Under the pieces are notes generated by a model, which saw nothing but the letters and a program-made list of their open reading frames with translations, was not told the origin of the DNA and did not search any database. Below, piece by piece: positions 1-37,235 of a stretch of DNA of 37,708 nt (the first letter of the stretch is position 1; every line of letters begins with the position of its first letter). The stretch is from a virus: IMG/VR virus record IMGVR_UViG_3300035698_015117, positions 1 through 37,708 of that record; one strand, given 5' to 3'. The translations under genes and the position numbers were made by a program.

Positions 1-396
1 CACTTCTTCTTCGGCTTCCTCGCGACTCATACCTTGATCAGATTGGAGCAATTCTATAATCACTTCATCGTCGTCGATACTTGATAAGAAATCACTCTCT
101 ATTGCGTCCGTGACCCGTTCATTGATTTCTGAGACGGCTGCTTGGACCTCGACTCGCCATCCGAAGTGTTCGGTCATACTGTCTTTGAATGATTCCCAAG
201 TCCGATCATCTATATCGTCATCAGATGATTCGTTATCAGATGATTCGTTATCACCTTCTGGAAGATCGAATACCAGTTCAGCTTCAAACCCAATAGTGAA
301 GCCGCCAGTATTAGCAGCAGTCAGAGCTTTTTCAAGAGAACTGGGACTCATTTTCAGTTCAGTAAGTGGAGTGTTTAATAATTCAAACAGTTTCAT
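1..396 (-). CDS. Partial virion-cargo candidate, amidoligase-like N-terminus
   Basis: The reading frame is open from an ATG at 396 to the window edge, giving 132 residues of a longer protein. It begins MKLFELLNTPLTE, a short amphipathic leader ending in L-T-E, which fits the T4 prohead-protease site (I/L)-x-E. After the leader comes TIGFEAELVF (about residues 34-43), similar to the opening G-(V/F)-E-x-E motif of amidoligase-2-like proteins. A very acidic Ser/Asp tract follows, encoded partly by a 15-bp tandem duplication. The start overlaps the stop of the upstream 2H phosphoesterase gene (ATGA). Leader and overlap are seen directly; the amidoligase identity rests on one motif and is tentative because the C-terminal part is outside the window. 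Confidence 0.6.
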   Translation of the reverse strand, partial: MKLFELLNTPLTELKMSPSSLEKALTAANTGGFTIGFEAELVFDLPEGDNESSDNESSDDDIDDRTWESFKDSMTEHFGWRVEVQAAVSEINERVTDAIESDFLSSIDDDEVIIELLQSDQGMSREEAEEEV

Positions 397-821
397 CGGT
401 CTTCCTCAATGTCTTCTACGACCACTCGATCAAATACTAATTTGAAATGTGGTAACAACATGGGCATAAATGCGGGGCCATGGTATTCGGGGTCAACGGT
501 TAGATGACAGAGATAGGTGGGATAATCACTCGTAGCCCCTGTATTCATCATGATTTTATTGATTCTCTCTGCTTCTGGGAAATCCAATAATAATACCAGA
601 GAATTTTCACCTAGTATTCTCCATTCAATTGGTGTCGCGCCTACATTTACTGCTAATCCATTAAACTGTTTGAGTTCGTGGACGGGCCGAGTAGAATACA
701 ATAGCGTACAATGCATCTGGTCGCTAGGTTGGTGCGCCATTTCATGAAAATCTAACCATCCACACAATTGAGAGGCAGATGCCGGATCCATATAGAAGGC
801 TGCGTAGGTACCGTTTTCCAA
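393..821 (-). CDS. 2H phosphoesterase, Acb1-like (possible anti-CBASS protein)
   Basis: This 142-residue protein has two H-x-T motifs, HCT at 37-39 and HLT at 106-108, each in a hydrophobic strand (MHCTLLYS and YLCHLTVD). That is the signature of 2H phosphoesterases. Size and the 69-residue spacing between the histidines match what I recall of T4 Acb1 (gp57B, H44 and H113), which degrades cyclic oligonucleotides to block CBASS immunity. A TTG start at 821 follows directly on the upstream TAA and has an AGAGA ribosome site; starting there keeps the early Tyr-rich strand (GTYAAFYM) typical of the family. It sits between two candidate ejected-protein genes. The alternative is another 2H member such as an RNA ligase/cyclic phosphodiesterase; the fold is well supported, the anti-CBASS role is inferred. 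Confidence 0.65.
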   Translation of the reverse strand: MENGTYAAFYMDPASASQLCGWLDFHEMAHQPSDQMHCTLLYSTRPVHELKQFNGLAVNVGATPIEWRILGENSLVLLLDFPEAERINKIMMNTGATSDYPTYLCHLTVDPEYHGPAFMPMLLPHFKLVFDRVVVEDIEEDR

Positions 822-1715
822 TTATCGATCTCTCTTTTTTCTTTCTGATCGAGTTACTGTCTCTTTGTCTTCATACCATTTTCTTTTGATCACTTGACGA
901 TCAGGTAGTAACTCGGAGTCGATGTGATGATTTTTAGCAGTGGTTAGATAATTGACGAAATCTCTAATACTTTCAAAACCAAACGTTTTTGATACTTCGG
1001 TTGCGATATTCAGAGGATGTCGGTCAGCGTTTTTCAAATCACTTGCCAATTGCTTATACATTCTAGCAGCTCGTGGATATTGATTTCGATCTTTATGATT
1101 GAAAGCGCGTGACATTACGCCTACTAGACCGCCAGTTTCTTCTAATGACTCATTATATACGTCTAAGTGTTGCTTAACAAGATCAAAATAATGTACCCCG
1201 TTTATTTCTGTATCGTGGTCGACCCCAGCAGTACGATAGAATTCTTCGACGTTGTTATCAGCTACGGCTTGTCGCAGTTGAGTAGCGCTGCTTAATCTAG
1301 GAGTCTGGACTGGCACGATTGCTTTAAATTGATAAAACCCATGTTTGCCTTCCACTCCATTATATTTGACAATACCATCCATCGCCCATTGCTCGTCAGT
1401 GTACACTCTCAACTCGGAATCTGGCATCATCTGGTAAGCTTTGGTTGCTAACACAAACCAATCTTGTTCAGGAATAACGTGGCCACGAGTGAATGGTGCA
1501 ATTGAGTCGATAACTGATAGTTTAACATCTAAGGGCAGTGGGTTTTTCTTGTTATGGGTACCGGGGTGAGTACCGATTAACCATTCCTCATTCTCATCGG
1601 CCATCATTTTCCAGGCAGCAATATGTCCTCGATGAGGAGGGTTCCATCTACCAAAAATTATCCCGATGCTGTTGGTTCGGTCTTCTTGTAGATCATAGAA
1701 TTCATCAAGTCTCAT
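822..1715 (-). CDS. nadM: Nicotinamide-nucleotide adenylyltransferase with capsid-targeting-like leader
   Basis: Residues about 17-35 carry IGIIFGRWNPPHRGH, the ATP-binding GxFNPxHxGH-type motif of the nucleotidyltransferase alpha/beta-phosphodiesterase superfamily. Near residue 142, LSSATQLRQAV resembles the C-terminal ISST-x-(I/L)R motif. Together they indicate an NMN adenylyltransferase (NMN + ATP to NAD + PPi). The N-terminus MRLDEFYDLQE precedes the catalytic core and ends in L-Q-E, a T4 gp21-type cleavage site. About 100 extra residues with no recognised domain follow the core. A late-type TAAATA lies 27 nt upstream of the ATG at 1715. Sister cytidylyltransferases are possible, so the substrate is probable rather than proven. 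Confidence 0.75.
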   Translation of the reverse strand: MRLDEFYDLQEDRTNSIGIIFGRWNPPHRGHIAAWKMMADENEEWLIGTHPGTHNKKNPLPLDVKLSVIDSIAPFTRGHVIPEQDWFVLATKAYQMMPDSELRVYTDEQWAMDGIVKYNGVEGKHGFYQFKAIVPVQTPRLSSATQLRQAVADNNVEEFYRTAGVDHDTEINGVHYFDLVKQHLDVYNESLEETGGLVGVMSRAFNHKDRNQYPRAARMYKQLASDLKNADRHPLNIATEVSKTFGFESIRDFVNYLTTAKNHHIDSELLPDRQVIKRKWYEDKETVTRSERKKRDR

Positions 1716-1742
1716 AAGTAGCGGTTCCTGTATTTGTTGTTT

Positions 1743-1748
1743 TATTTA
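1743..1748 (-). promoter_or_regulatory. T4-type late promoter core TAAATA
   Basis: Minus-strand GGTAAATAAAAC lies 27 nt upstream of the NMN adenylyltransferase start, in the short gap after the preceding gene. It matches the TATAAATA-like late core seen before other structural genes here. Confidence 0.45.
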
Positions 1749-1756
1749 CCTGTACC

Positions 1757-2848
1757 TTATTTGAAATTAGCAGCACTGAATTTGAACCGGTTTACTAACT
1801 TGATAGGTCCAGTCTTAGAATGAACAACGTATCCCTCATGTCCGGGGTCATCACCGGTATGAGCTACTAGATCTCCAGAATGACTGTCCAAGTAATCTAC
1901 AATCTCATTCTTAACTGAGGAGATTTCGGTAAATGCGGTAAAGAACCCAGTTAATCCTCGCTGATTTTGACTAAGGTGCTCAATGATTTTTTGCCCCATC
2001 GCAGCCGAAGAATTAGGCTTGACCCACTCTAAGAACCCCGATGCTATATTTTCAAAACTACGGTCTCGTACTCTGCTATTGATGTACTTGAGTAACAACC
2101 CAGGAAGAGCCTTTATTTTCAGTTGAGTTAAGGTTTGGTCGTCCAACATCTTTTCAATATCGTTACCGTACCTTCCGGTTAGTCCGTCTAATTTAGACAC
2201 GGAAGATGGAGGCGAAGTCTGAGGGGCAGCTCCTATCTTGTCATCCATAATTAGCAGCTTTCCTGTTGGAATCACTCCGGGAATCTGTTCAATATCTTTG
2301 ATGTGCTTACCGACCGAGCTACCTGCTGGGAGATAAGTATGGACTACAATCCCGGCAGAGCTTTTCGCAATCTTTCCGCCTAACTCGCTGTTAGAGTTTA
2401 CTGTATACGTTACGGTGTTTGGTTTAATAACAAAAACCCCGTTCTTCATTGGCGGGGTACTGGTATACATCAGATCACCAAAAAGTAATCCGTCAATACG
2501 AGGAACGCTGGCTTCAAAGGTTTTCCATATTGCTGAATATAACCCAATGAGATCCTCTCGCCCGCCGCCGCGACGAGCGGACAGCACTGCGGCAATGTCT
2601 TCTGGCGAACGCGGTACTGGGTTCATAAACTTATCGCCCATAACAAACTCACCATTAATTCGGCCCCATTTGATTGCCGGCTTACCGTCTGGTTTGAAGC
2701 TTGCTGAATTGCTATCCGATAACGCAGATTTCAAAGACGCAATAGCGGTTTGAATGCCTCTTTTCCCGTACAACACCAAATCTTCGGGATGGTCTATTCG
2801 AGCTTTACTGGTATCGTAATTCTCTTCGAGTAATTCGTTAATCTTCAT
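1757..2848 (-). CDS. Covalent nucleotidyltransferase (DNA/RNA ligase fold) virion-cargo candidate
   Basis: The 363-residue protein shows ligase-superfamily motifs in order. KPDG at 52-55 fits motif I KxDG with K52 the candidate AMP-accepting lysine, followed by IKWGR. DGLLFGDLMY at 119-128 resembles motif III. GIVVHTY at 166-172 may be motif IIIa. HEGYVVHS at 337-344 fits motif IV, and IKLVNRFKF at 349-357 fits motif V. The gap between IIIa and IV is unusually long, so an insert is likely. No OB-fold is obvious after motif V. The leader MKINELLEE contains L-L-E, a prohead-protease-type site. The start overlaps the previous gene's stop by 4 nt (ATGA). Similar proteins in marine T4-like phages are, as I recall, uncharacterised; ligase, RNA-capping or adenylylating activity are all possible. 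Confidence 0.6.
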   Translation of the reverse strand: MKINELLEENYDTSKARIDHPEDLVLYGKRGIQTAIASLKSALSDSNSASFKPDGKPAIKWGRINGEFVMGDKFMNPVPRSPEDIAAVLSARRGGGREDLIGLYSAIWKTFEASVPRIDGLLFGDLMYTSTPPMKNGVFVIKPNTVTYTVNSNSELGGKIAKSSAGIVVHTYLPAGSSVGKHIKDIEQIPGVIPTGKLLIMDDKIGAAPQTSPPSSVSKLDGLTGRYGNDIEKMLDDQTLTQLKIKALPGLLLKYINSRVRDRSFENIASGFLEWVKPNSSAAMGQKIIEHLSQNQRGLTGFFTAFTEISSVKNEIVDYLDSHSGDLVAHTGDDPGHEGYVVHSKTGPIKLVNRFKFSAANFK

Positions 2849-3735
2849 CCTAGTCCCTCATTTTTCATCACACACTGATTCAGTCTCTTTTCTACTGCGG
2901 TCAGTAATTCTGCTACCAACGCTGGTTTGTTGTCAACGTTGGTTAGTCGTATTACTCTCGGGTCATCAGCTAGGAGATATCTAAACTCTGAGAAATCGTT
3001 TCCTTCTGCTGCGGTTTCAATATAAACAATAGCATCTAGATTGATTCTTAGATCATCTATCCATTGAAGATCCCGCGATGTCCGAGGGTAATCGGTCAAT
3101 ACGTAACCTGCTTCGTCTACCACACGGTTGTTTACTAGACTTGCTATTAGATTAGGAGGAACAGCTGATCGGGAGGCATAAGCAGACACCAGTTCACCTA
3201 TCTTGCTGTTTTCATCGATGGCATATGCTAGCAAGTTTTGATAGTCGAGAGCAGGTATTCTGTACGTTTTGCTCAGTAATCTACTAATTTGATTTGATAA
3301 CTGACTATCTGCACACACTATTGAAAATTGCGGTTTAGCTTCTGCCGCCGGTGAAATGGTTTCCCAGTTCTTCACCTCAAGAAACATGGGAAGTTCGCTG
3401 TAGCAATCTGGACCACGTATAACTGGTCTGTCGATTTCCGCCGACAACGATTGACTGTCGCCCATAGTTTTTCCAGGTATAAGAACAATATCAGTGCCTT
3501 CTAGGTCTGATATTTGATTCCGGATCATATCAGTAGTGATCCAGGCGGCTACTGCTACGTCAAGCGTCTGAATAGAGTAGGTGAAATCTTCTGGGTCGAT
3601 TGCTTCCATGACCCGTCGTAGACCTTTTTCGGCCAGCGAGCCGGTTATCATACGAACGTGCATTCCAGACTCTGGTTGCCATTCATTCAACCATTCTGTT
3701 GACTCAACTATGTGTATGAATTCTAGTAATCGCAT
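2845..3735 (-). CDS. DUF6513-like domain fused to degenerate adenylate-kinase-like domain
   Basis: The leader MRLLEFIHIVE ends in I-V-E, a prohead-protease-type site. Residues about 24-120 (RMITGSLAEKGLRRV, VAVAAWITTDMI, DIVLIPGKTMGD, IRGPDCYSELP) follow the pattern of DUF6513, otherwise found beside dihydropteroate-synthase-like domains. Residues about 136-285 read like adenylate kinase: FSIVCADSQLSNQISRLL stands where the P-loop should be, then KTYRIPALDYQNLLAYAI, PPNLIASLVNNRV and GYVLTDYPRTSRDLQ (the GFxxDGFPRT region). The GxPGxGK loop is lost, so phosphotransfer is unlikely; binding or a structural role is more likely. The domain matches are by eye. The pairing is unusual and no function is assigned. 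Confidence 0.55.
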   Translation of the reverse strand: MRLLEFIHIVESTEWLNEWQPESGMHVRMITGSLAEKGLRRVMEAIDPEDFTYSIQTLDVAVAAWITTDMIRNQISDLEGTDIVLIPGKTMGDSQSLSAEIDRPVIRGPDCYSELPMFLEVKNWETISPAAEAKPQFSIVCADSQLSNQISRLLSKTYRIPALDYQNLLAYAIDENSKIGELVSAYASRSAVPPNLIASLVNNRVVDEAGYVLTDYPRTSRDLQWIDDLRINLDAIVYIETAAEGNDFSEFRYLLADDPRVIRLTNVDNKPALVAELLTAVEKRLNQCVMKNEGLG

Positions 3736-5060: not shown

Positions 5061-5739
5061 TGACTTTATCCTCTTTGATTTCTTCTATCATTTGAAATTC
5101 TATTAAGCGAGTAATTGTTCCGGGATGAGATAAACTCATCTGACCTACAAAATTCAACGTATTTACGTCTAAGTAAGGTCTACTGTACCCAAAGTTCTTG
5201 GTGTTGCAATCGGGATCGTAACGAGTTATCAGACTGAATAGTTCTTGTTTAGTTATGTTACGATTTCTCCCAACATCAAAATGAACTCGGTACCGGGCCC
5301 TTGGTTTTCGGATACGGGGAACTGTTTCAATTGGAATATCGCATAGATATTGAATAGAGTCATCGACTTCTGTTTTTAGAGTTCTATTTTCTAATGCGAC
5401 AGGGAGTATAGAGACTGCATCAACCCGAATTGCGAAATCATTGAGGGTACAAACAAATTCAATGACTTTAATCACCCGAACACGGTCAGTATAAATTATC
5501 ACAGATTGGTATGAATAACGACTTTTAACACCGGGGAATTCCTCTTCAATTAACTCACCCAGACGAACACAATAATCATATCGACGACATTTGAATTTGA
5601 CGCTCGCCGACCATCCTTTACGCAGCTTAGTAATAGCTGTTAGTGATGGCACCGTAGTAGTGACAGGAATTGCATCAATTAACTGTTTGCGGTACTCTTT
5701 GAATTCTGCAGAATATAATGAGGTTAATGTGCTAGACAT
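5050..5739 (-). CDS. Unknown protein
   Basis: A 229-residue protein of mixed alpha/beta character, with basic central stretches (PRIRKPRARYRVHFDVGRNRN). It starts at an ATG at 5739, overlapping the clpA stop by 8 nt, so it is likely made from the same message as clpA and dnaJ. I recognise no family, signal peptide or membrane segment. The close coupling to clpA is the only clue. Confidence 0.65.
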   Translation of the reverse strand: MSSTLTSLYSAEFKEYRKQLIDAIPVTTTVPSLTAITKLRKGWSASVKFKCRRYDYCVRLGELIEEEFPGVKSRYSYQSVIIYTDRVRVIKVIEFVCTLNDFAIRVDAVSILPVALENRTLKTEVDDSIQYLCDIPIETVPRIRKPRARYRVHFDVGRNRNITKQELFSLITRYDPDCNTKNFGYSRPYLDVNTLNFVGQMSLSHPGTITRLIEFQMIEEIKEDKVIEL

Positions 5740-7987
5740 AAGACGTTACTCCATTCTTTTCAACAATATCATCTCGAAATTTAATTTCAGTATCCTCCAG
5801 ATACGCCATAACTGTACTACCGGCTGTTAGTTCTGACATCAGAATCATCCGACTAAGTGGAATTCTAATAAGTCGGTCTATTGCTCGATGTAAAGGTCGA
5901 GCTCCCATTTTCTTATTATACCCTTCTTTGATAATTTTGTCAACTGTTTCTTCGGACAATCGCAAATTAATTGACTGTTCAGCTAACTGATTGTTCAATT
6001 CGGTCAATTGTTTTGCTACGATCTGACGGAGGTTCATTTTATCAAGTTGTGAAAATTGTATCACTGCGTCAACTCGATTGCGAAACTCTGGTCTGAAATA
6101 TTGATCATACTCCACTAACTCTTCGCCATCTCTGTTATTCAAAAACCCGGCTGGAGCCTTTTCTGCTTTCTCGGCACCTAGGTTACTGGTCATAATAATC
6201 ACACAATTTCTGGCGTCTGCCTGTCGACCATTCCCTCCGGTAATCTTCCCATAATCAAACAAGTTAAGCATAACGTCACTGATAGCAGGATGGGCTTTCT
6301 CAATCTCGTCAAACAGAATAACACTGTGTGGATTCTGATTAATCTGTTGCACCAATAGTCCGCCACTAACGTTACCATCATCAAACCCAACGTACCCAGG
6401 ACTGGTACCAATTAATCGGCTAACACTGTTTGATTCTTGGTATTCTCCCATGTCAAATCGTAATAGGTTCATGCCAAGATTAGAGCTTAACTGTTTAGCT
6501 AGTTCAGTCTTACCAACACCGGATGGCCCTAAAAATACAAAGACACCTAATGGGCGATCGGGGGAATGAATACCAGCTTTGCTCAGAAATACTCGTTCTA
6601 ATACGGTATCAACTGCTGAATCTTGCCCAAACACTGCGCTTTTGATGTTTCCTTCAATAGCAACTATGTCAGTTTTCTTCTCAGTGTCACCTAGTTGGTC
6701 GCTTGGAATTCCTGTCGCCTTGCTTATTTCGTTTACGATATCAACTCGGTCGATTGTGAAGTCGGTTTCGTTATTAACTCTGCGCCTAGCACACGCACCA
6801 TCAATTAGATCAATAGCTTTATCCGGCAACTTTCGATCACTCTGGTATCTAGCACTCAGTTCTACCGCAGTCTTGATAGCACTGTCAGTAATAATACCAG
6901 TATGAAACGCTTGTAGGTTATCACGCAACCCATGAAGAATCTGGACAGAAGCATCGATGCTGGGTTCATCAACAGTAACTCGATAGAACCGTCGCATCAA
7001 GGCCCGGTCTTTTTCGAAACTAGTATTATACTCTTCCCAAGTAGTGCTAGCAATAACTCGAATTTTGCCTCGAGTCAACGCTGGTTTGATCATATTAGCA
7101 AAGTCAACATCACTACCACCGCCAGAACCTGCTCCTCGCATTTGATGCGCTTCGTCGATAAACAACACACAATTACCTTTGGTTTCTAATGACTTGATAA
7201 CTGCTTTTAGTTTCTCTTCAAATTCACCGCGATATTTACTGCCGGCCAGAAGACTGCCAATGTCAAGGTTATAAACGTTCCATCCTTTAAGAAATTCAGG
7301 AGCTTCACCGTTTACTATATTTCGAGCTAGCCCTTCAGCGATAGCAGTCTTGCCTACCCCGGGGTCGCCTACTAGCAGGACATTGCTCTTATTGCGTTTA
7401 GCTAGTACTTGAGCAATCTCAAACAATTCAGATTCACGAGCAATAACTGGGTCAATCTTTCCGTTTTCTGCTAATCCGTTTAGATTTACGCAGAATTCTT
7501 CTAGGATCTGATTGGCTCGAGCGAGATCACTCTCACCTGTCTTTTGTTCTCGTGTTTGTTGATTGAACAAATTCACCATCTCTTTTCGATCTACCCCGTA
7601 TTTGGAAAAGAAATAGGTAGCAAACGTGTCTGGTTCAGTTGTCATGCCTATATAAATATCAATGTAAGTAATTGTGGACCTAGAAGTCAATTTGAGCTGA
7701 TTGTTGATCTTAACAAATAATCTTTCATACTGACTGCTTTTTTGAACAGTTTCGCCCATAGACGTCATTTGTAGATTACTAGTTTGATCGTCCAAGTATT
7801 CATCTAGGTCTTCGCGAAGTCCTTCAACATCAACTTGATGAGTATATAACAGTTCAACAAATGGTTCGTAAACACACAAAGCCATGGCTAAGTGTTCTAG
7901 AGTAAGAATGTTATGCGCGTATGATTGAGCAATTTCTATACTACTAATGATAAGTCGTTCGGCATCTGGATGTTGACTACCAGCCAT
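5732..7987 (-). CDS. clpA: ClpA-like AAA+ unfoldase
   Basis: The 751-residue protein has full ClpA architecture. A Clp N-domain (about 1-145, with HNILTLEHLAMAL) is followed by AAA-1 with Walker A GDPGVGKT at 207-214 and Walker B VLFIDEA at 274-280, then AAA-2 with Walker A GPSGVGKT at 487-494, Walker B ILFDEIE and sensor-2 region MGARPLHRAIDR near 693. There is no ClpB-type coiled-coil insert, so it should act with a peptidase rather than as a disaggregase. At 613-615, where ClpA/ClpX carry the ClpP-docking IGL/IGF loop, it has AGF, which may still dock host ClpP. No ClpP gene is in the window, but a ClpS adaptor is encoded at 32 kb. It overlaps dnaJ by 11 nt and follows AAGGA. Confidence 0.93.
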   Translation of the reverse strand: MAGSQHPDAERLIISSIEIAQSYAHNILTLEHLAMALCVYEPFVELLYTHQVDVEGLREDLDEYLDDQTSNLQMTSMGETVQKSSQYERLFVKINNQLKLTSRSTITYIDIYIGMTTEPDTFATYFFSKYGVDRKEMVNLFNQQTREQKTGESDLARANQILEEFCVNLNGLAENGKIDPVIARESELFEIAQVLAKRNKSNVLLVGDPGVGKTAIAEGLARNIVNGEAPEFLKGWNVYNLDIGSLLAGSKYRGEFEEKLKAVIKSLETKGNCVLFIDEAHQMRGAGSGGGSDVDFANMIKPALTRGKIRVIASTTWEEYNTSFEKDRALMRRFYRVTVDEPSIDASVQILHGLRDNLQAFHTGIITDSAIKTAVELSARYQSDRKLPDKAIDLIDGACARRRVNNETDFTIDRVDIVNEISKATGIPSDQLGDTEKKTDIVAIEGNIKSAVFGQDSAVDTVLERVFLSKAGIHSPDRPLGVFVFLGPSGVGKTELAKQLSSNLGMNLLRFDMGEYQESNSVSRLIGTSPGYVGFDDGNVSGGLLVQQINQNPHSVILFDEIEKAHPAISDVMLNLFDYGKITGGNGRQADARNCVIIMTSNLGAEKAEKAPAGFLNNRDGEELVEYDQYFRPEFRNRVDAVIQFSQLDKMNLRQIVAKQLTELNNQLAEQSINLRLSEETVDKIIKEGYNKKMGARPLHRAIDRLIRIPLSRMILMSELTAGSTVMAYLEDTEIKFRDDIVEKNGVTSYV

Positions 7988-8828
7988 TTTTTATTTCCTT
8001 TAGTTGTTCGATTTGATTCATTGATAATACGGGTATTGTAATAGATACCTGGAGTAAAAGGTCTCCCCGCTCTGTCTTTTGATATTTATTCATTCCGTGT
8101 TGACGTATCCTCAAAGTCCGTCCAGATTGTGTCCCAGCCGGGACTGTAACTCGAATTTCTCGGCCCTCTATAGTTTTAAACACCTTTTCGGTACCAGTTA
8201 TCGCGTCGATCGCATCAACTGGCAACGTCGCAAGCAGGTTATCACCTTGTCTGCTAAAAATTGGATGTGACATCGTCAATAGTTTGACATAGATGTTACC
8301 AGGTATCGCCCCGGCAATTTCGGTCGACCCTTGCCCATTAAATGTGATAGAGGTGTGATCATTTACCCCTACAGGAATCTTGACTGGTATCATTTTATCT
8401 TTACCATTCAACTGAAACTGTAAGATTTTTTCTCTACCGTAGAATATATCTTCGAGTGTTACATTGACAGCTAATGATATATCTGGATTAACCGCAGGAC
8501 GATATCCCTGCATTCCAAACATCTGATGGAACAGGTCGTCGACATTTGCTGTCGACCACCGTTGTGCTCCGGAATACCTGTATTGATTGTCAAACGGTGA
8601 ACCAGCTGACGATGGTCTAGCCGATCGGTACTGTCTTTCAAGATCATATGCTTGCCGAGACGCTGCGTCTCCTATCACACTGTAGGCGGCACTGATTTCT
8701 TTGAATCGATCAGGGTCGGCAGACGGGTTAACATCTGGGTGATATTCCTTGGCCAGCTTTTTGTAAGCTGACTGTATTTCAGCTTGCGAAGCATCTTCAG
8801 ATACGCCTAGGATTTGATAATGATTCAT
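7977..8828 (-). CDS. dnaJ: DnaJ/CbpA-type co-chaperone
   Basis: The 283-residue protein has an N-terminal J-domain (1-65) with the HPD motif (EYHPDVNPSADPDRF) that stimulates Hsp70. A Ser/Gly-rich linker and C-terminal substrate-binding beta domains (about 115-275, DISLAVNVTLEDIFYGREKILQF) follow. The CxxCxGxG zinc finger of classical DnaJ is absent, so it is CbpA-like. It would recruit host DnaK. It lies 11 nt into the clpA start region as first gene of a dnaJ-clpA message with a sigma70-like promoter just upstream. Confidence 0.92.
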   Translation of the reverse strand: MNHYQILGVSEDASQAEIQSAYKKLAKEYHPDVNPSADPDRFKEISAAYSVIGDAASRQAYDLERQYRSARPSSAGSPFDNQYRYSGAQRWSTANVDDLFHQMFGMQGYRPAVNPDISLAVNVTLEDIFYGREKILQFQLNGKDKMIPVKIPVGVNDHTSITFNGQGSTEIAGAIPGNIYVKLLTMSHPIFSRQGDNLLATLPVDAIDAITGTEKVFKTIEGREIRVTVPAGTQSGRTLRIRQHGMNKYQKTERGDLLLQVSITIPVLSMNQIEQLKEIKNGW

Positions 8829-12456: not shown

Positions 12457-12462
12457 TATTTA
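12457..12462 (-). promoter_or_regulatory. T4-type late promoter core TAAATA
   Basis: Minus-strand CTCTAAATAGAAAG lies 13 nt before the clamp-loader ATG in the gap after the co-chaperonin gene. Replication genes are also driven late in some T4-like phages, but this single core could be chance. Confidence 0.35.
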
Positions 12463-12795
12463 GAGTTTGCCTACATAGCCATCGTTTACTGGTTCGTCAC
12501 TGACCAACAAAATATCCTTAACATCGATCATTCGGATGGTTCTAACGCTGTGGTCGTCGATATCGATACCTCTTGTCCATCGTGCGTGATCGACCAATAC
12601 ATAATCACCGACGCTTACGTCTATCTGATCTTTGCCGACAGAGTACACTCGCCCCCATCGAGGTCTAATTCCATGATCGCGACCATTATCGCTTTTTAGA
12701 ATAATTCCACTGTTCAGTACTCGTTCATCGAAGTTCATCTCTTCGACTAATACGTTATTCTTTAATGGACTAATTCGGCCCTTAACTGGATTCAT
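12460..12795 (-). CDS. GroES-like co-chaperonin (T4 gp31-like)
   Basis: The 111-residue protein has the GroES beta-barrel pattern: ISPLKNNVLVEEM near the start, a mobile-loop region LNSGIILKSDNG, then RWGRVYSVGKDQIDVSVGDYVLVDH. T4 gp31 (111 residues) replaces GroES on GroEL to fold the capsid protein, and this protein is the same length. It overlaps the next gene upstream by 14 nt. Barrel identity is good; direct equivalence to gp31 is inferred. Confidence 0.75.
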   Translation of the reverse strand: MNPVKGRISPLKNNVLVEEMNFDERVLNSGIILKSDNGRDHGIRPRWGRVYSVGKDQIDVSVGDYVLVDHARWTRGIDIDDHSVRTIRMIDVKDILLVSDEPVNDGYVGKL

Positions 12796-13155: not shown

Positions 13156-13674
13156 TTATCTTAGAAATTCTCGGTAGTCTAAATCGTAGTATAGACTATT
13201 CACGTGGTGTACCCCAATCTTGTATAATACAAAACTACTAACACTACTACCACGGCCTACCCCCCAGACTACATTATTCTCTGTCATCGTGTCAACAAGA
13301 TACTTGAGATAAACTAGTAATCCAGTCATTTCTCTCTTTTCGAATTCTATTAATTCTTCAGCAGCTCGTTGTAATTCTGCTTGAGTGTCGCATTCTTGTA
13401 ATACAAATCTAGCAATGTCAAAAGCAGCATACTCCTGGGGAATGTTCCATCGACGACAGTTCTTTCGATGCCATTCTGTTGGTTCAATATCAATTTCTTC
13501 TAATGAACTGAGTAACGATAATTCGCTATAATTAGCGTTAACTGCTTGATTGTGTTGGTCTCTAACATCAGGGTCTACCCTTAACTTGATGAAATCTAGA
13601 TTTGAATCGACAAACATTCTTTCGATGATTTCATCTGATTGAGATATTACTCGGTTGTATTGATCAACTTTCAT
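13156..13674 (-). CDS. Isolated DNA polymerase III alpha-like fragment
   Basis: In this 172-residue protein the C-terminal part, NVVWGVGRGSSVSSFVLYKIGV followed by LYYDLDYREFLR, matches the PGRGSAAGSLVAYxLGI...YxLLFERFL segment of bacterial replicative polymerases (DnaE/PolC). The segment stops just where the catalytic PDxDxDF motif should follow. The ATG at 13674 is chosen over an earlier frame start because it overlaps the previous gene by only 11 nt. There is no PHP or finger domain. It cannot be a complete polymerase; it may bind DNA or nucleotide, or be a domesticated relic. Confidence 0.65.
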   Translation of the reverse strand: MKVDQYNRVISQSDEIIERMFVDSNLDFIKLRVDPDVRDQHNQAVNANYSELSLLSSLEEIDIEPTEWHRKNCRRWNIPQEYAAFDIARFVLQECDTQAELQRAAEELIEFEKREMTGLLVYLKYLVDTMTENNVVWGVGRGSSVSSFVLYKIGVHHVNSLYYDLDYREFLR

Positions 13675-14272
13675 TGTCGGTTGACACCCCACCTTTGATA
13701 ATAGTCGGCGTCCAACCAGCTTTGACTTTAGTTGATTGATCAAAGTCTAAACTAGTATCTTTCCAACTTTCAATGTATCCTCCCACTTGAGTATCACCTG
13801 TGTGCGTTGAGAACTTAGGTGAACTATCAAAAATCCAATGAGATGGGGTATATGTTTCTGTCATATCAACCGCATCTTCATAGCTCATGCACACTTCAAA
13901 GTCAGTGTAACTGGTAGTTAAAGTAGCGGTATCAACTTGAATTCTATTCTCAGAGATACTATTTAATTTTATTAGCAGTGCTGCTAACATAATTGGTTGA
14001 GTAGCGGGGTCAGGCAAGACAGCAAGTTTGTTTATAGTAGATGCCTGTAACCATTCTAGAGAAGGCGATTCACTGCTTGCCCAACATGCTTGATCCATCT
14101 GAAATTCTAAGAAATATGCTTGGCGCATTAGAGCTATTTCTAGATCATCAAATGCGTATTGTTCTGCGGTATCAGTCGTCATCGAACTCTGAACTGACAT
14201 TTTTATGTCGCATACAGTGATACCGTCATCATCAAGAACCGAGCATAAGAATGATTTACTCACGCTAAACAT
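13664..14272 (-). CDS. Unknown protein
   Basis: A 202-residue protein starting MFSVSKSFLCSVLDDDG. GGAGG lies 8 nt before the ATG at 14272, which overlaps the upstream gene end. Sequence is mixed, with QYAFDDLEIALMRQAYFLEFQMDQ as a helical part and a beta-rich C-terminus. No recognisable motif. It lies between a small conserved gene and the PolIII-like fragment, all overlapping, so co-expression is likely. Confidence 0.6.
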   Translation of the reverse strand: MFSVSKSFLCSVLDDDGITVCDIKMSVQSSMTTDTAEQYAFDDLEIALMRQAYFLEFQMDQACWASSESPSLEWLQASTINKLAVLPDPATQPIMLAALLIKLNSISENRIQVDTATLTTSYTDFEVCMSYEDAVDMTETYTPSHWIFDSSPKFSTHTGDTQVGGYIESWKDTSLDFDQSTKVKAGWTPTIIKGGVSTDNES

Positions 14273-31459: not shown

Positions 31460-32004
31460 AGTTTGACACCTCGCCATCCGATACGGCGTAATGCCCGTTG
31501 TACTCCGCTTGCTTGGGAAATAGCATCTTCTAACGCATCGTGGTGATTGCTCCTATCCAATGATCCATCTACGAAATTGAACAGTGTTCGGCTGTCGCAT
31601 ATTTGATAATAGCGCCAGGGCGCTGGACGATCCATTTGCTGATACAGGTGTTCCATAATATTCACATCAAAACTACCCTGGCTCCATATATATCCGGCAT
31701 TCCAGCAAAATTTAGAGAGTTCATCCAAACATTCCTCGACGCTCTTTCGGTCATCAGTACTAAAGGCACTCTCAACAATCTCTGGTGAATCTAGTGATTG
31801 TTTCTTCCACCATTTCATAGTGTTGTCACTTATGTCTCTATTGAGGGTCGCAGTCTGCTGGTCAATATCAAATTTCAAATAAATTGACCGATCCCGGTCA
31901 ATTTTAAGTAAGGTGTCGTCAAACTTTACAGCACCTAAGCTTAGAATAACAGCGTTGGTTTCGGTACTAAGTGTCTCTAAGTCCATCATTATTGATTGTG
32001 TCAT
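31456..32004 (-). CDS. dexA: DexA-like 3'-5' exonuclease (DEDDh)
   Basis: The 182-residue protein has SIMMDLETLST with D8 and E10 (ExoI), NTMKWWKKQS typical of the Rv2179c/DexA subfamily, WSQGSFDVNIMEHL (ExoII Asp) and NHHDALEDAISQA with the DEDDh His and Asp (ExoIII). T4 DexA is a 227-residue exonuclease with the same plan. It may degrade host DNA or RNA ends. It overlaps clpS by 4 nt. Confidence 0.82.
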   Translation of the reverse strand: MTQSIMMDLETLSTETNAVILSLGAVKFDDTLLKIDRDRSIYLKFDIDQQTATLNRDISDNTMKWWKKQSLDSPEIVESAFSTDDRKSVEECLDELSKFCWNAGYIWSQGSFDVNIMEHLYQQMDRPAPWRYYQICDSRTLFNFVDGSLDRSNHHDALEDAISQASGVQRALRRIGWRGVKL

Positions 32005-32321
32005 TCGTCTCTTTCTGTAGTTACTCGCAAAGTATGCGAATTCAATACGTTAAGTTTTTCAACCTGTGCTACCTTGAATTCAGCTATCTCAAGTGGCAAC
32101 ACTGCTACGGTCTCTGCGCCTTTCTCATGAACTGAAGCTGCTATCTCATCAGCAGCTTCTAAATCTTTATTGAAGATTTCATGAAGTAACATGACTACGA
32201 ATTCGAATGGAGTCACATCATCGTTATGGAAAATTACTTTATACATTCGTGGCGGGGACAGATCATGTTGAATTTTTGGTTTTGTTTTGGTGTTTTCTTT
32301 AACTGAGACGTCAGCCGACAT
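32001..32321 (-). CDS. clpS: ClpS adaptor (N-degron recognition)
   Basis: The 106-residue protein is ClpS: an extended N-tail, then PPRMYKVIFHNDDVTPFEFVVMLL, VHEKG and KVAQVEKLNVLNSHTLRVT. N33-D34-D35 and H65 correspond to E. coli N34, D35, D36 and H66 that bind the N-degron amino group. The E. coli gate residue M40 is Phe here (F39), which may alter which N-terminal residues fit. It hands substrates to ClpA. First gene of an operon with the DexA-like, unknown and thyX genes. Confidence 0.93.
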   Translation of the reverse strand: MSADVSVKENTKTKPKIQHDLSPPRMYKVIFHNDDVTPFEFVVMLLHEIFNKDLEAADEIAASVHEKGAETVAVLPLEIAEFKVAQVEKLNVLNSHTLRVTTERDE

Positions 32322-32352
32322 AAGGTATCTCCATTTTTCTAATCTCCTTTAC

Positions 32353-32382
32353 ATACTACACAATATCGGACCAATGAGTCAA
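32353..32382 (-). promoter_or_regulatory. Sigma70-like early promoter for clpS operon
   Basis: Minus strand TTGACT (32377-32382), 18 nt, TAGTAT (32353-32358), 31 nt before clpS. Same boxes and spacing as the mazG promoter. Confidence 0.65.
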
Positions 32383-32400
32383 TAATTGATTTTGATGGCA

Positions 32401-32429
32401 AGAGTGGCAGACCCATTGTCTGCCACTCT
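32401..32429 (-). terminator. Strong hairpin between hsp20 and clpS
   Basis: AGAGTGGCAGAC pairs perfectly with GTCTGCCACTCT (12 bp, 5-nt loop), 14 nt after the hsp20 stop. No U-run follows, but its strength and position before a new promoter suggest termination or end protection. Confidence 0.7.
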
Positions 32430-32442
32430 CATTAATCCTAGA

Positions 32443-32868
32443 CTATTGAATTTCGATCTGTCTAGGTTGTAGTTCTTCTGGAACAACCTCTTTGAGTTTG
32501 ATCACAAGAACGCCATCGGTCATCTCGGCATTGGTTACTTCAACGTGAGCAGCCAGTTTGAATCTCTCATTGAACTTGCGAGTAGCAATCCCCTGATACA
32601 AATACTTTCGAGGATTTTCCTCTTCTGCGATTTCGCCAGAAATGCTCAATTGTACGCAATTGTTGAAATCTCGCTCAGTAGTAATCTCAATATTCTCTCG
32701 ACTGAAACCAGCTAGTGCCATTTCAATCTGATAAGAGCCATCGCCTAAATCCACGATATTTCGTGGAGGGAATTTTGATGGGGTAACATTTGAAAGACGA
32801 TCCAATTCGTCTAATATTCTGGTAAAACCGATGCTTTGCGATAGGTAAGGGGTAAGACTTGTTCTCAT
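32443..32868 (-). CDS. hsp20: Hsp20/alpha-crystallin small heat-shock protein
   Basis: The 141-residue protein has the IbpA-like N-terminus (IGFTRILDELDRL), an alpha-crystallin domain (NIVDLGDGSYQIEMALAGFSRENIEI split over strands, YLYQGIATRKFNERFKL) and C-terminal GVLVIKLKEVVPEE with a final R-x-I-E-I motif for oligomerisation. It holds unfolded proteins. Common in marine T4-like phages. AAAGGAG is 8 nt before the ATG. Confidence 0.94.
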   Translation of the reverse strand: MRTSLTPYLSQSIGFTRILDELDRLSNVTPSKFPPRNIVDLGDGSYQIEMALAGFSRENIEITTERDFNNCVQLSISGEIAEEENPRKYLYQGIATRKFNERFKLAAHVEVTNAEMTDGVLVIKLKEVVPEELQPRQIEIQ

Positions 32869-36971: not shown

Positions 36972-37235
36972 TCAGGTTCCTGCTAGATCGATGCCGCTAA
37001 CGTTCTCTATTCGAAAACTGCGCCATGCTTTTAATTCAGGTACCCATACACTCATAACCTCAATCCGGCTCTCTTTGATCTTGCGCTCGACCACTGGATT
37101 GGCCACTGGTTGCGGAACAATCGCAGGATCCAACGTACATCGCATCACTCGTTCGGTGCCGTCAATTTTGGTAAATGTAACATCACATACGCCGTTCACC
37201 AAGCTTTCATGCAGGTATTCTCTTGTATATTTCAT
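36972..37235 (-). CDS. DUF2693-like SH3-barrel protein
   Basis: The 87-residue protein has DVTFTKIDGTERVMRCTLDP and VWVPELKAWRSFRIENVSGI, the pattern of DUF2693 (WYL/SH3-like barrel), frequent in marine phages. Likely nucleic-acid or protein binding; unproven. AGAGGAC precedes the ATG at 37235. Confidence 0.75.
   Translation of the reverse strand: MKYTREYLHESLVNGVCDVTFTKIDGTERVMRCTLDPAIVPQPVANPVVERKIKESRIEVMSVWVPELKAWRSFRIENVSGIDLAGT

Follow-up and report, generated by a model that had tools for sequence, protein, structure and literature searches.

In bacteriophage T4, the internal proteins IPI, IPII and IPIII and the protein Alt each begin with a leader of ~10 residues that ends in (L/I)xE and precedes an unrelated soluble domain (PMC9026906, PMC3012670). 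Here we describe a comparable arrangement in a 37,708-base viral record, IMGVR_UViG_3300035698_015117 (the window, by which we mean this whole stretch of DNA), which opens with a row of five consecutive minus-strand genes encoding an adenylate kinase (ADK)-like protein, a DUF6267 protein, a protein resembling nicotinamide mononucleotide (NMN) adenylyltransferase (NMNAT), an Acb1-like protein, and an open reading frame (ORF) cut by the contig end (the cut ORF). Four of the five begin with a leader resembling the T4 type, and we consider it likely that the row forms a virion-cargo cassette of a T4-like marine phage, its leader-bearing products being delivered with the DNA at infection. The likeness to T4 extends to a gp21-type protease, which is found in relatives of the window phage, and to gene order, with the T4 gene of gp57B, the Acb1 counterpart, neighboring an internal-protein gene. 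The cargo differs: in T4, it consists of small basic inhibitors or an ADP-ribosyltransferase, whereas in the window, where packaging is predicted, it consists of nucleotide- and nicotinamide adenine dinucleotide (NAD)-type enzymes.

A second described case comes from cyanophages. NMNAT-like or cytidylyltransferase proteins (T4-GC190) have been reported in virions of S-SM1 (PMC3037559), S-SCSM1 (PMC9602691), S-SZBM1 (PMC9146016), and S-CREM2 (PMC10665884), all relatives only and all studied as CsCl-purified preparations, and the suggestion that such proteins enter the host cell is likewise published. The proteins identified in these reports by mass spectrometry (MS) belong to the same enzyme family as the window NMNAT, and all four (4/4) carry a leader: MKKFSAFLNE/A in S-SM1, MKSFLQFLKE/A in protein S-SCSM1_91, MRFRQFIIE/A in S-SZBM1_140, and MKNFSSFLTE/A in S-CREM2_154 (here and below, a slash marks the predicted cut). 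In S-SM1 and S-SZBM1, a DUF6267 gene adjoins. They differ in belonging to another lineage, with 19 to 25% identity, and the available portions of the reports draw no link to a capsid-targeting leader. Among the described phage enzymes NadV, NadM, and NadR (PMC9503650) and NARP1 (PMC12774641), the fold of the window NMNAT is nearest to NadM-type NMNAT; the window row differs in having no Nudix, phosphoribosyltransferase, or kinase partner, and the NAD+ synthesis section of PMC9503650 (3.6), as far as it was available, does not mention packaging of NadV/NadM/NadR-type enzymes.

The four N termini, and the 5' ends of their genes at 396, 1715, 2848, and 3735, are as an earlier note made from the sequence alone had given them. 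The ADK-like protein (2845–3735, minus strand; 296 amino acids, combining DUF6513 with a degenerate adenylate-kinase domain) begins MRLLEFIHIVE (3703–3735), with predicted cleavage after E11 (IVE/S). The DUF6267 protein (1757–2848, minus strand; 363 amino acids) begins MKINELLEE (2822–2848), with predicted cleavage after E8 or E9, so that its leader ends in LLE or LEE. The NMNAT-like protein of the HIGH superfamily (822–1715, minus strand; 297 amino acids) begins MRLDEFYDLQE (1683–1715), which aligns with the leaders of its relatives and has its predicted cleavage after E11 (LQE/D). The cut ORF (1–396, minus strand), a gene start that runs off the contig end with 132 amino acids visible, begins MKLFELLNTPLTE (358–396), with predicted cleavage after E13 (LTE/L).

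These leaders are 9 to 13 residues long, the T4-type propeptide range being 10 to 19, and lie outside the folded domain, for which the domain profiles start at residues 17 to 26. The globular domain that the earlier note had placed behind each leader is indeed there in the three complete proteins, with cytidylyltransferase/NMNAT from residue 17 to 20, DUF6267 from 18, and DUF6513 from 26; position 1 of the cellular family models TIGR00125 and TIGR00284 falls on NMNAT residue 17 and ADK protein residue 25, respectively. In AlphaFold models, residues 1 to 8 of the DUF6267 protein have a pLDDT below 50, with a domain above 90 and a model overall at 92, and the first ten residues of the NMNAT have a pLDDT of 59, with a domain at ~95. 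Comparison of homologues, which the earlier note had proposed as a check, revealed leader-bearing and leaderless members within the same families, and homologues of three of the four window proteins carry recognizable T4-type leaders in other phages. Close NMNAT relatives (34–49% identity) begin MRLRELFE/A, MKLRELFE/N, and similar, and more distant ones begin MKSFSEFLKE/D and MIKKFSEFVTE/A; leaderless NMNAT-like proteins or cytidylyltransferases, which start at the catalytic domain, occur in two collected loci (L148, MKDKIVFTFGRFNPP; L164), in P-HM1 (GC190), and in the jumbo phages RaK2 and EC22.5-2. DUF6267 proteins with a leader are found in Melnitz (INFSKYITE/D), L012 (MRARDFLTE/A), L013 (MRAQEFLFE/A), L091 (MKRFVEYLAE/A), and L162 (MYSFKQYLNE/A), and cyanophage members begin MAKNTHLEHLED, without a leader. 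In Melnitz, the NMNAT and two neighboring proteins have leaders as well. The ADK of L117 is likewise leaderless. Because homologues exist with and without it, the domain models start after it, and it falls outside the confidently modeled fold, we conclude from these sequence comparisons that the leader is an add-on unit, present or absent among homologues. The same type of leader stands on small basic proteins in close relatives of the window, for example in L099 at 5980 and 6461. T4 gp24, listed as cut by gp21 in the T4 record, begins MAKINELLRE/S, close to the MKINELLEE of the window; we take the slash to be the exact gp21 cleavage site.

The earlier note had also raised the possibility of bacterial homologues sharing the leader, a comparison which we ran in part. 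There were 17 hits in bacterial or archaeal assemblies, with a leader on most. The only one traced (L214, a 188 kb contig of a Nonlabens xiamenensis assembly) has an NMNAT N terminus identical to that of cyanophage P-TIM40, and a gp21-type protease was present in six of six such assemblies tested versus none of 14 control genomes, its location on the same contig not having been checked. The leader-bearing hits are probably phage contigs, and we judged it unlikely, from the P-TIM40-identical N terminus and the protease in the assemblies, that they are cellular homologues.

The earlier note had defined the leader by (L/I)xE within 13 residues. This is present in all four proteins, but its frequency in the window does not exceed chance, with eight of 56 genes passing versus 5.1 expected with residues 2 to 13 shuffled (P = 0.10), and we dropped it as a stand-alone test. 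The string M[KR][LI]xE[FL] is found at all four leader starts and at no other gene start in the window (P ~ 6e-8, from the rate of the string inside window proteins), but this motif was set post hoc, with the data already seen. Because of these two shortcomings, we built an independent position profile from 56 leaders of NMNAT-like proteins of other phages, taken from 80 IMG/VR loci with relatives of the window NMNAT and excluding T4 and the window itself; 55 of the 56 usable leaders have a hydrophobic-x-E ending at residue 6 to 15. When a 50 kb region of T4 was scanned with this profile, the top three genes were ipI (18.6), ipII, and ipIII (12.4). In the window, the cut ORF ranked first (14.6) and DUF6267 second (13.8), and none of 959 internal-Met controls scored as high. 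The leaders of these two proteins are supported directly by the profile, that of the ADK modestly, and that of the NMNAT through its relatives only.

The genes also recur together. Single-sequence scans of IMG/VR with the NMNAT, DUF6267, and ADK proteins gave no matches, alignment queries gave 80 loci each, and an NMNAT-like gene is present in 525 records. DUF6267 and NMNAT occur together in 19 of 20 contigs, which were chosen mainly for the NMNAT gene, and DUF6267 precedes NMNAT in Melnitz, S-SZBM1, P-RSM6, P-TIM40, P-HM1, and S-SM1. The two are fused in L103 (656 amino acids) and in the S-PM2 deletion-mutant record (L011, 7995–9770; 591 amino acids), and searching viral structure models turned up more fusion proteins, ~600 amino acids long, from uncultured phages. 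Wild-type S-PM2 has a separate 390-residue cytidylyltransferase entry, and the S-PM2 fusion may be specific to the mutant or arise from annotation. A second aquatic lineage (L127, L135, L162, L167, and others) has a row of DUF6267, adenylate kinase, Zeta/AAA_33 kinase, and a large NMNAT-domain protein. Its adenylate kinases, remote proteins found by phmmer against the ORFs of the loci, are true ones with the P-loop intact (PF00406, 1.2e-38 and 2.9e-44), and two of them begin with the leaders MKTFRDFIFE/K and MKSFKQYFFE/A; a third leader of this lineage is MRFKDFIKE/S. None of its sequences were in the training set of the profile, and its cassette genes have a median profile score of 8.95 (n = 32) versus −4.5 for other genes of the same loci (n = 79; P = 3e-8). 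In L127, L135, L162, L167, L169, L205, and L210, a Zeta-toxin-like P-loop kinase (AAA_33) directly follows the adenylate kinase and in several of them has a leader-like start, making it a further cargo candidate.

The identities suggested earlier for the proteins fared unequally. For the NMNAT, an NMNAT-like fold and HIGH motifs were borne out: the protein matches PF01467 (2.9e-7), has HRGH at residue 28 and SSATxxR (SSATQLR) at 142, which match the HxGH and (S/I)xTxxR types, and has NadM and the M. thermoautotrophicum NMNAT as its top Foldseek matches (E 8e-6 to 1.5e-5, probability 1.00). NCBIfam NMNAT models match it below their own cut-offs, a profile search of PDB sequences found nothing, and conversion of NMN and ATP to NAD+ is its predicted activity. 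The DUF6267 protein (PF19782, 1.5e-32) had been called a ligase-fold nucleotidyltransferase. Like the covalent nucleotidyltransferases (DNA/RNA ligases and capping enzymes), it has a motif I of the KxDG type, with K52, D54, and G55 invariant in 46 homologues, and Foldseek gave weak but recurrent similarity to these enzymes (best PDB E 0.15; a phage RNA ligase in BFVD, 0.01). It differs from them in that there is no confident structural match and motifs III to V are not established; a profile search of PDB sequences found nothing meaningful. The label ligase-like is plausible, not established, and the protein is best regarded as a candidate.

The adenylate kinase-like fusion of the earlier note stands as a fusion of DUF6513 (PF20123, 2.1e-20, residues 26–110; TIGR00284 from residue 25) with a degenerate adenylate-kinase domain (PF00406, 3.3e-5, below cut-off, residues 152–242; E 0.003 against PDB adenylate kinases). 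The Walker A motif GxxGxGK is replaced by VCADSQLSNQ, DYPR (215) alone being retained, and we rejected the domain as an active kinase since it has no P-loop. No close relative of this protein was found in the 20 contigs searched or in phage records. The cut ORF had been labeled amidoligase-like, for which we found no support: the gene is truncated, and in the 132 residues present, there is no recognizable amidoligase domain and no Pfam or NCBIfam match, only a sub-significant PHROGs match. Amidoligase homologues sought by motif in the collected loci gave no convincing match.

Several results weigh against the row being virion cargo, the chance-level count of (L/I)xE among them. The ADK leader of the window is modest, ranking sixth with a profile score of 5.3 (p = 0.017), and that of the NMNAT does not rise above background (−2.1, p = 0.15). 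A WYL_2 protein (36972–37235) starts with the leader mimic MKYTREYLHE and scores 11.5, probably a false positive, which makes it usable as a false-positive control. These observations favor the explanation that the leaders are chance or generic N termini, short M-K/R-hydrophobic starts being common and (L/I)xE being a weak motif. We regard this as highly improbable, because the T4 internal proteins were recovered blind, the leader type is conserved across diverged homologues, and the result was replicated in the second lineage; for the families, the chance explanation is largely refuted. Other points concern the step from leader to virion. Directly past the predicted cut, the window proteins have D, N or E, S, or L, versus A in all four MS-reported NMNATs. 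When the profile was compared with virion detection in three cyanophages, the result at score 8 was 6 of 44 versus 6 of 141 (P = 0.04); the profile is a weak general predictor of published virion proteins, and a leader-like start alone is no proof. One such protein, SSCSM1_30 of S-SCSM1 (MK867354.2, 44215–44535; 106 amino acids), starts with a near-perfect T4-type leader, MKTFKQFMSE/S, and is not marked as belonging to the virion. The window ADK domain is probably not an active kinase, because its P-loop is replaced, and its enzymatic role is doubtful. No match to the gp21 protease was found in the 37.7 kb window fragment, and the authors of two of the MS studies warn, in the portions available, of carry-over through CsCl purification (PMC10665884, PMC9602691). 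Finally, we infer packaging, cleavage, and ejection from T4, for a phage which is known from the sequence of a fragment alone.

The protease is nevertheless found where relatives can be followed further. Peptidase_S77, the gp21 family, is encoded by S-SM1, S-SCSM1, S-SZBM1, S-CREM2, and Melnitz. In the largest close relative of the window, a 161 kb contig (L178), there is a gp21 match (Peptidase_S77, ~5100–5835) in a gene with a frame break, which is probably a contig error. This contig has a T4-type head module, with portal, core, gp22-like, and gp23-like genes recognized by eye, and its gp23-like protein has LME/S near residue 42. The sequence directly past that predicted cut resembles a (S/T)AGATSAxxI segment which follows the leader in proteins of ~85 amino acids in L101 (10464–10721) and L104 (8475–8735). 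In the other direction, RaK2 encodes the protease together with an NMNAT-like protein that has no leader, and in the RaK2-related phage CBB, two predicted nicotinamide-nucleotide adenylyltransferases, whose N termini were not read, are missing from the portion of the virion table that we saw. The DUF6267 protein of S-SZBM1, which is leaderless, is missing from the published virion list of that phage in the portion available. The virion reports, as far as available, give no cleavage-site data for NMNAT-like proteins.

Two further explanations accept the leader as real. In the first, leaders would dock the proteins in the prohead, but their role would be in assembly, or they would be expelled or degraded there, with no delivery to the host. 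T4 provides a precedent: gp67, gp68, and gp22 are likewise substrates of its protease, and little of them remains (PMC9026906). The accessible part of the S-CREM2 study gives low MS coverage for the cytidylyltransferase, with three peptides. We find this improbable, since T4 internal proteins, in which a compact leader of 10 residues precedes a folded domain, are retained and injected, the catalytic motifs of the NMNAT are kept, and four phages are reported to have an NMNAT-like protein in their mature particles. In the second, the leader would be a docking helix which joins the enzymes to each other or to another partner in the infected cell, and presence in virions would reflect the carry-over raised in PMC10665884 and PMC9602691. 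A helix is predicted by the model at NMNAT residues 3 to 11, and the occasional DUF6267–NMNAT fusion is consistent with a complex. This explanation is quite improbable, since the leader agrees with the T4 capsid-targeting peptides in its residues, their spacing, and the glutamate at its end, and stands on unrelated folds, including the small basic proteins of L099, and since all tested isolates whose NMNAT bears a leader also encode the protease.

We therefore return to virion cargo as the preferred explanation. The leader, its likeness to T4 internal proteins, its add-on pattern, and the linkage of the genes are computational observations. On the T4 model, leader-bearing proteins would be made during head assembly, and the capsid-targeting peptide of 9 to 13 residues would dock each of them in the prohead core; a gp21-type protease would then cut after the glutamate of (L/I)xE, and the mature protein would remain among the packaged DNA and exit with it at infection. 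That core docking, cleavage, and ejection proceed in this manner in the window phage is an argument by analogy. As to purpose, the conserved pairing of DUF6267 and NMNAT would fit a NAD and nucleotide repair set active before phage transcription, a guess which we hold with low confidence. In such a set, the NMNAT would convert NMN and ATP to NAD+. Its usual neighbor or fusion partner, DUF6267, could be an adenylyltransferase of the ligase type; were DUF6267 to use NAD+, it would release NMN, which the NMNAT would recycle, closing the cycle.

The remaining gene of the row suggests a counter-defense setting. The Acb1/T4 gp57B-like 2H phosphodiesterase (393–821, minus strand, TTG start) matches PF23474 over its full length (3.2e-13), and two HxT motifs, HCT and HLT, were recognized by eye. 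It belongs to the row but, being leaderless, is not predicted to be cargo. T4 gp57B adjoins ipI, and this anti-CBASS-type gene of the window lies among leader-bearing genes. A PADLOC search returned 0 matches. Elsewhere, the window has a chaperone and protease set (5732–8828, 12460–12795, and 32001–32868) comprising a Pfam-confirmed DnaJ and, by eye, ClpA/B-like ATPase, GroES-like, ClpS-like, and Hsp20-like proteins. A protein of 195 amino acids (13156–13743) matches a fragment only of DNA polymerase III alpha (PF07733, 1.9e-9).

The proposal as first made was of an ejected-cargo cluster, with a set not previously described as ejected. Its core, that non-structural enzymes bear a capsid-targeting leader of the T4 type, finds good support in the comparison of homologues. 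The amidoligase does not, nor is an NMNAT in virions new, the presence of NMNAT-like proteins in virions and their suggested cell entry having been published before. The literature searchable outside subscription, as far as we found, does not link NMNAT-like proteins to leaders of the T4 type, does not mention DUF6267, and does not describe a leader-tagged cassette. What appears to be new is the leader-tagged cassette; capsid-targeted internal proteins and NMNAT-like proteins in cyanophage virions were already known.

T4 internal proteins are the textbook example of phage proteins packaged in the head and injected, but the list of known cargoes is short. Should the leader serve as a packaging tag that can be read, cargo could be predicted for hundreds of T4-like phages from their sequences. 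It is possible, though we hold this tentatively, that many T4-like aquatic phages carry in the capsid a preformed NAD and nucleotide repair kit. The kit would comprise NMNAT and ligase-like DUF6267, joined in certain lineages by adenylate kinase and a zeta-like kinase, all with leaders of their own; it would act within the first minutes of infection, ahead of phage transcription, against NAD-depleting or RNA-cutting defenses, with the NMNAT recycling NMN released by a NAD-dependent DUF6267. The cargo reading, if true, would account for the repeated finds of NMNAT-like proteins in cyanophage virion proteomes and would give a concrete role to DUF6267, a widespread unnamed family.

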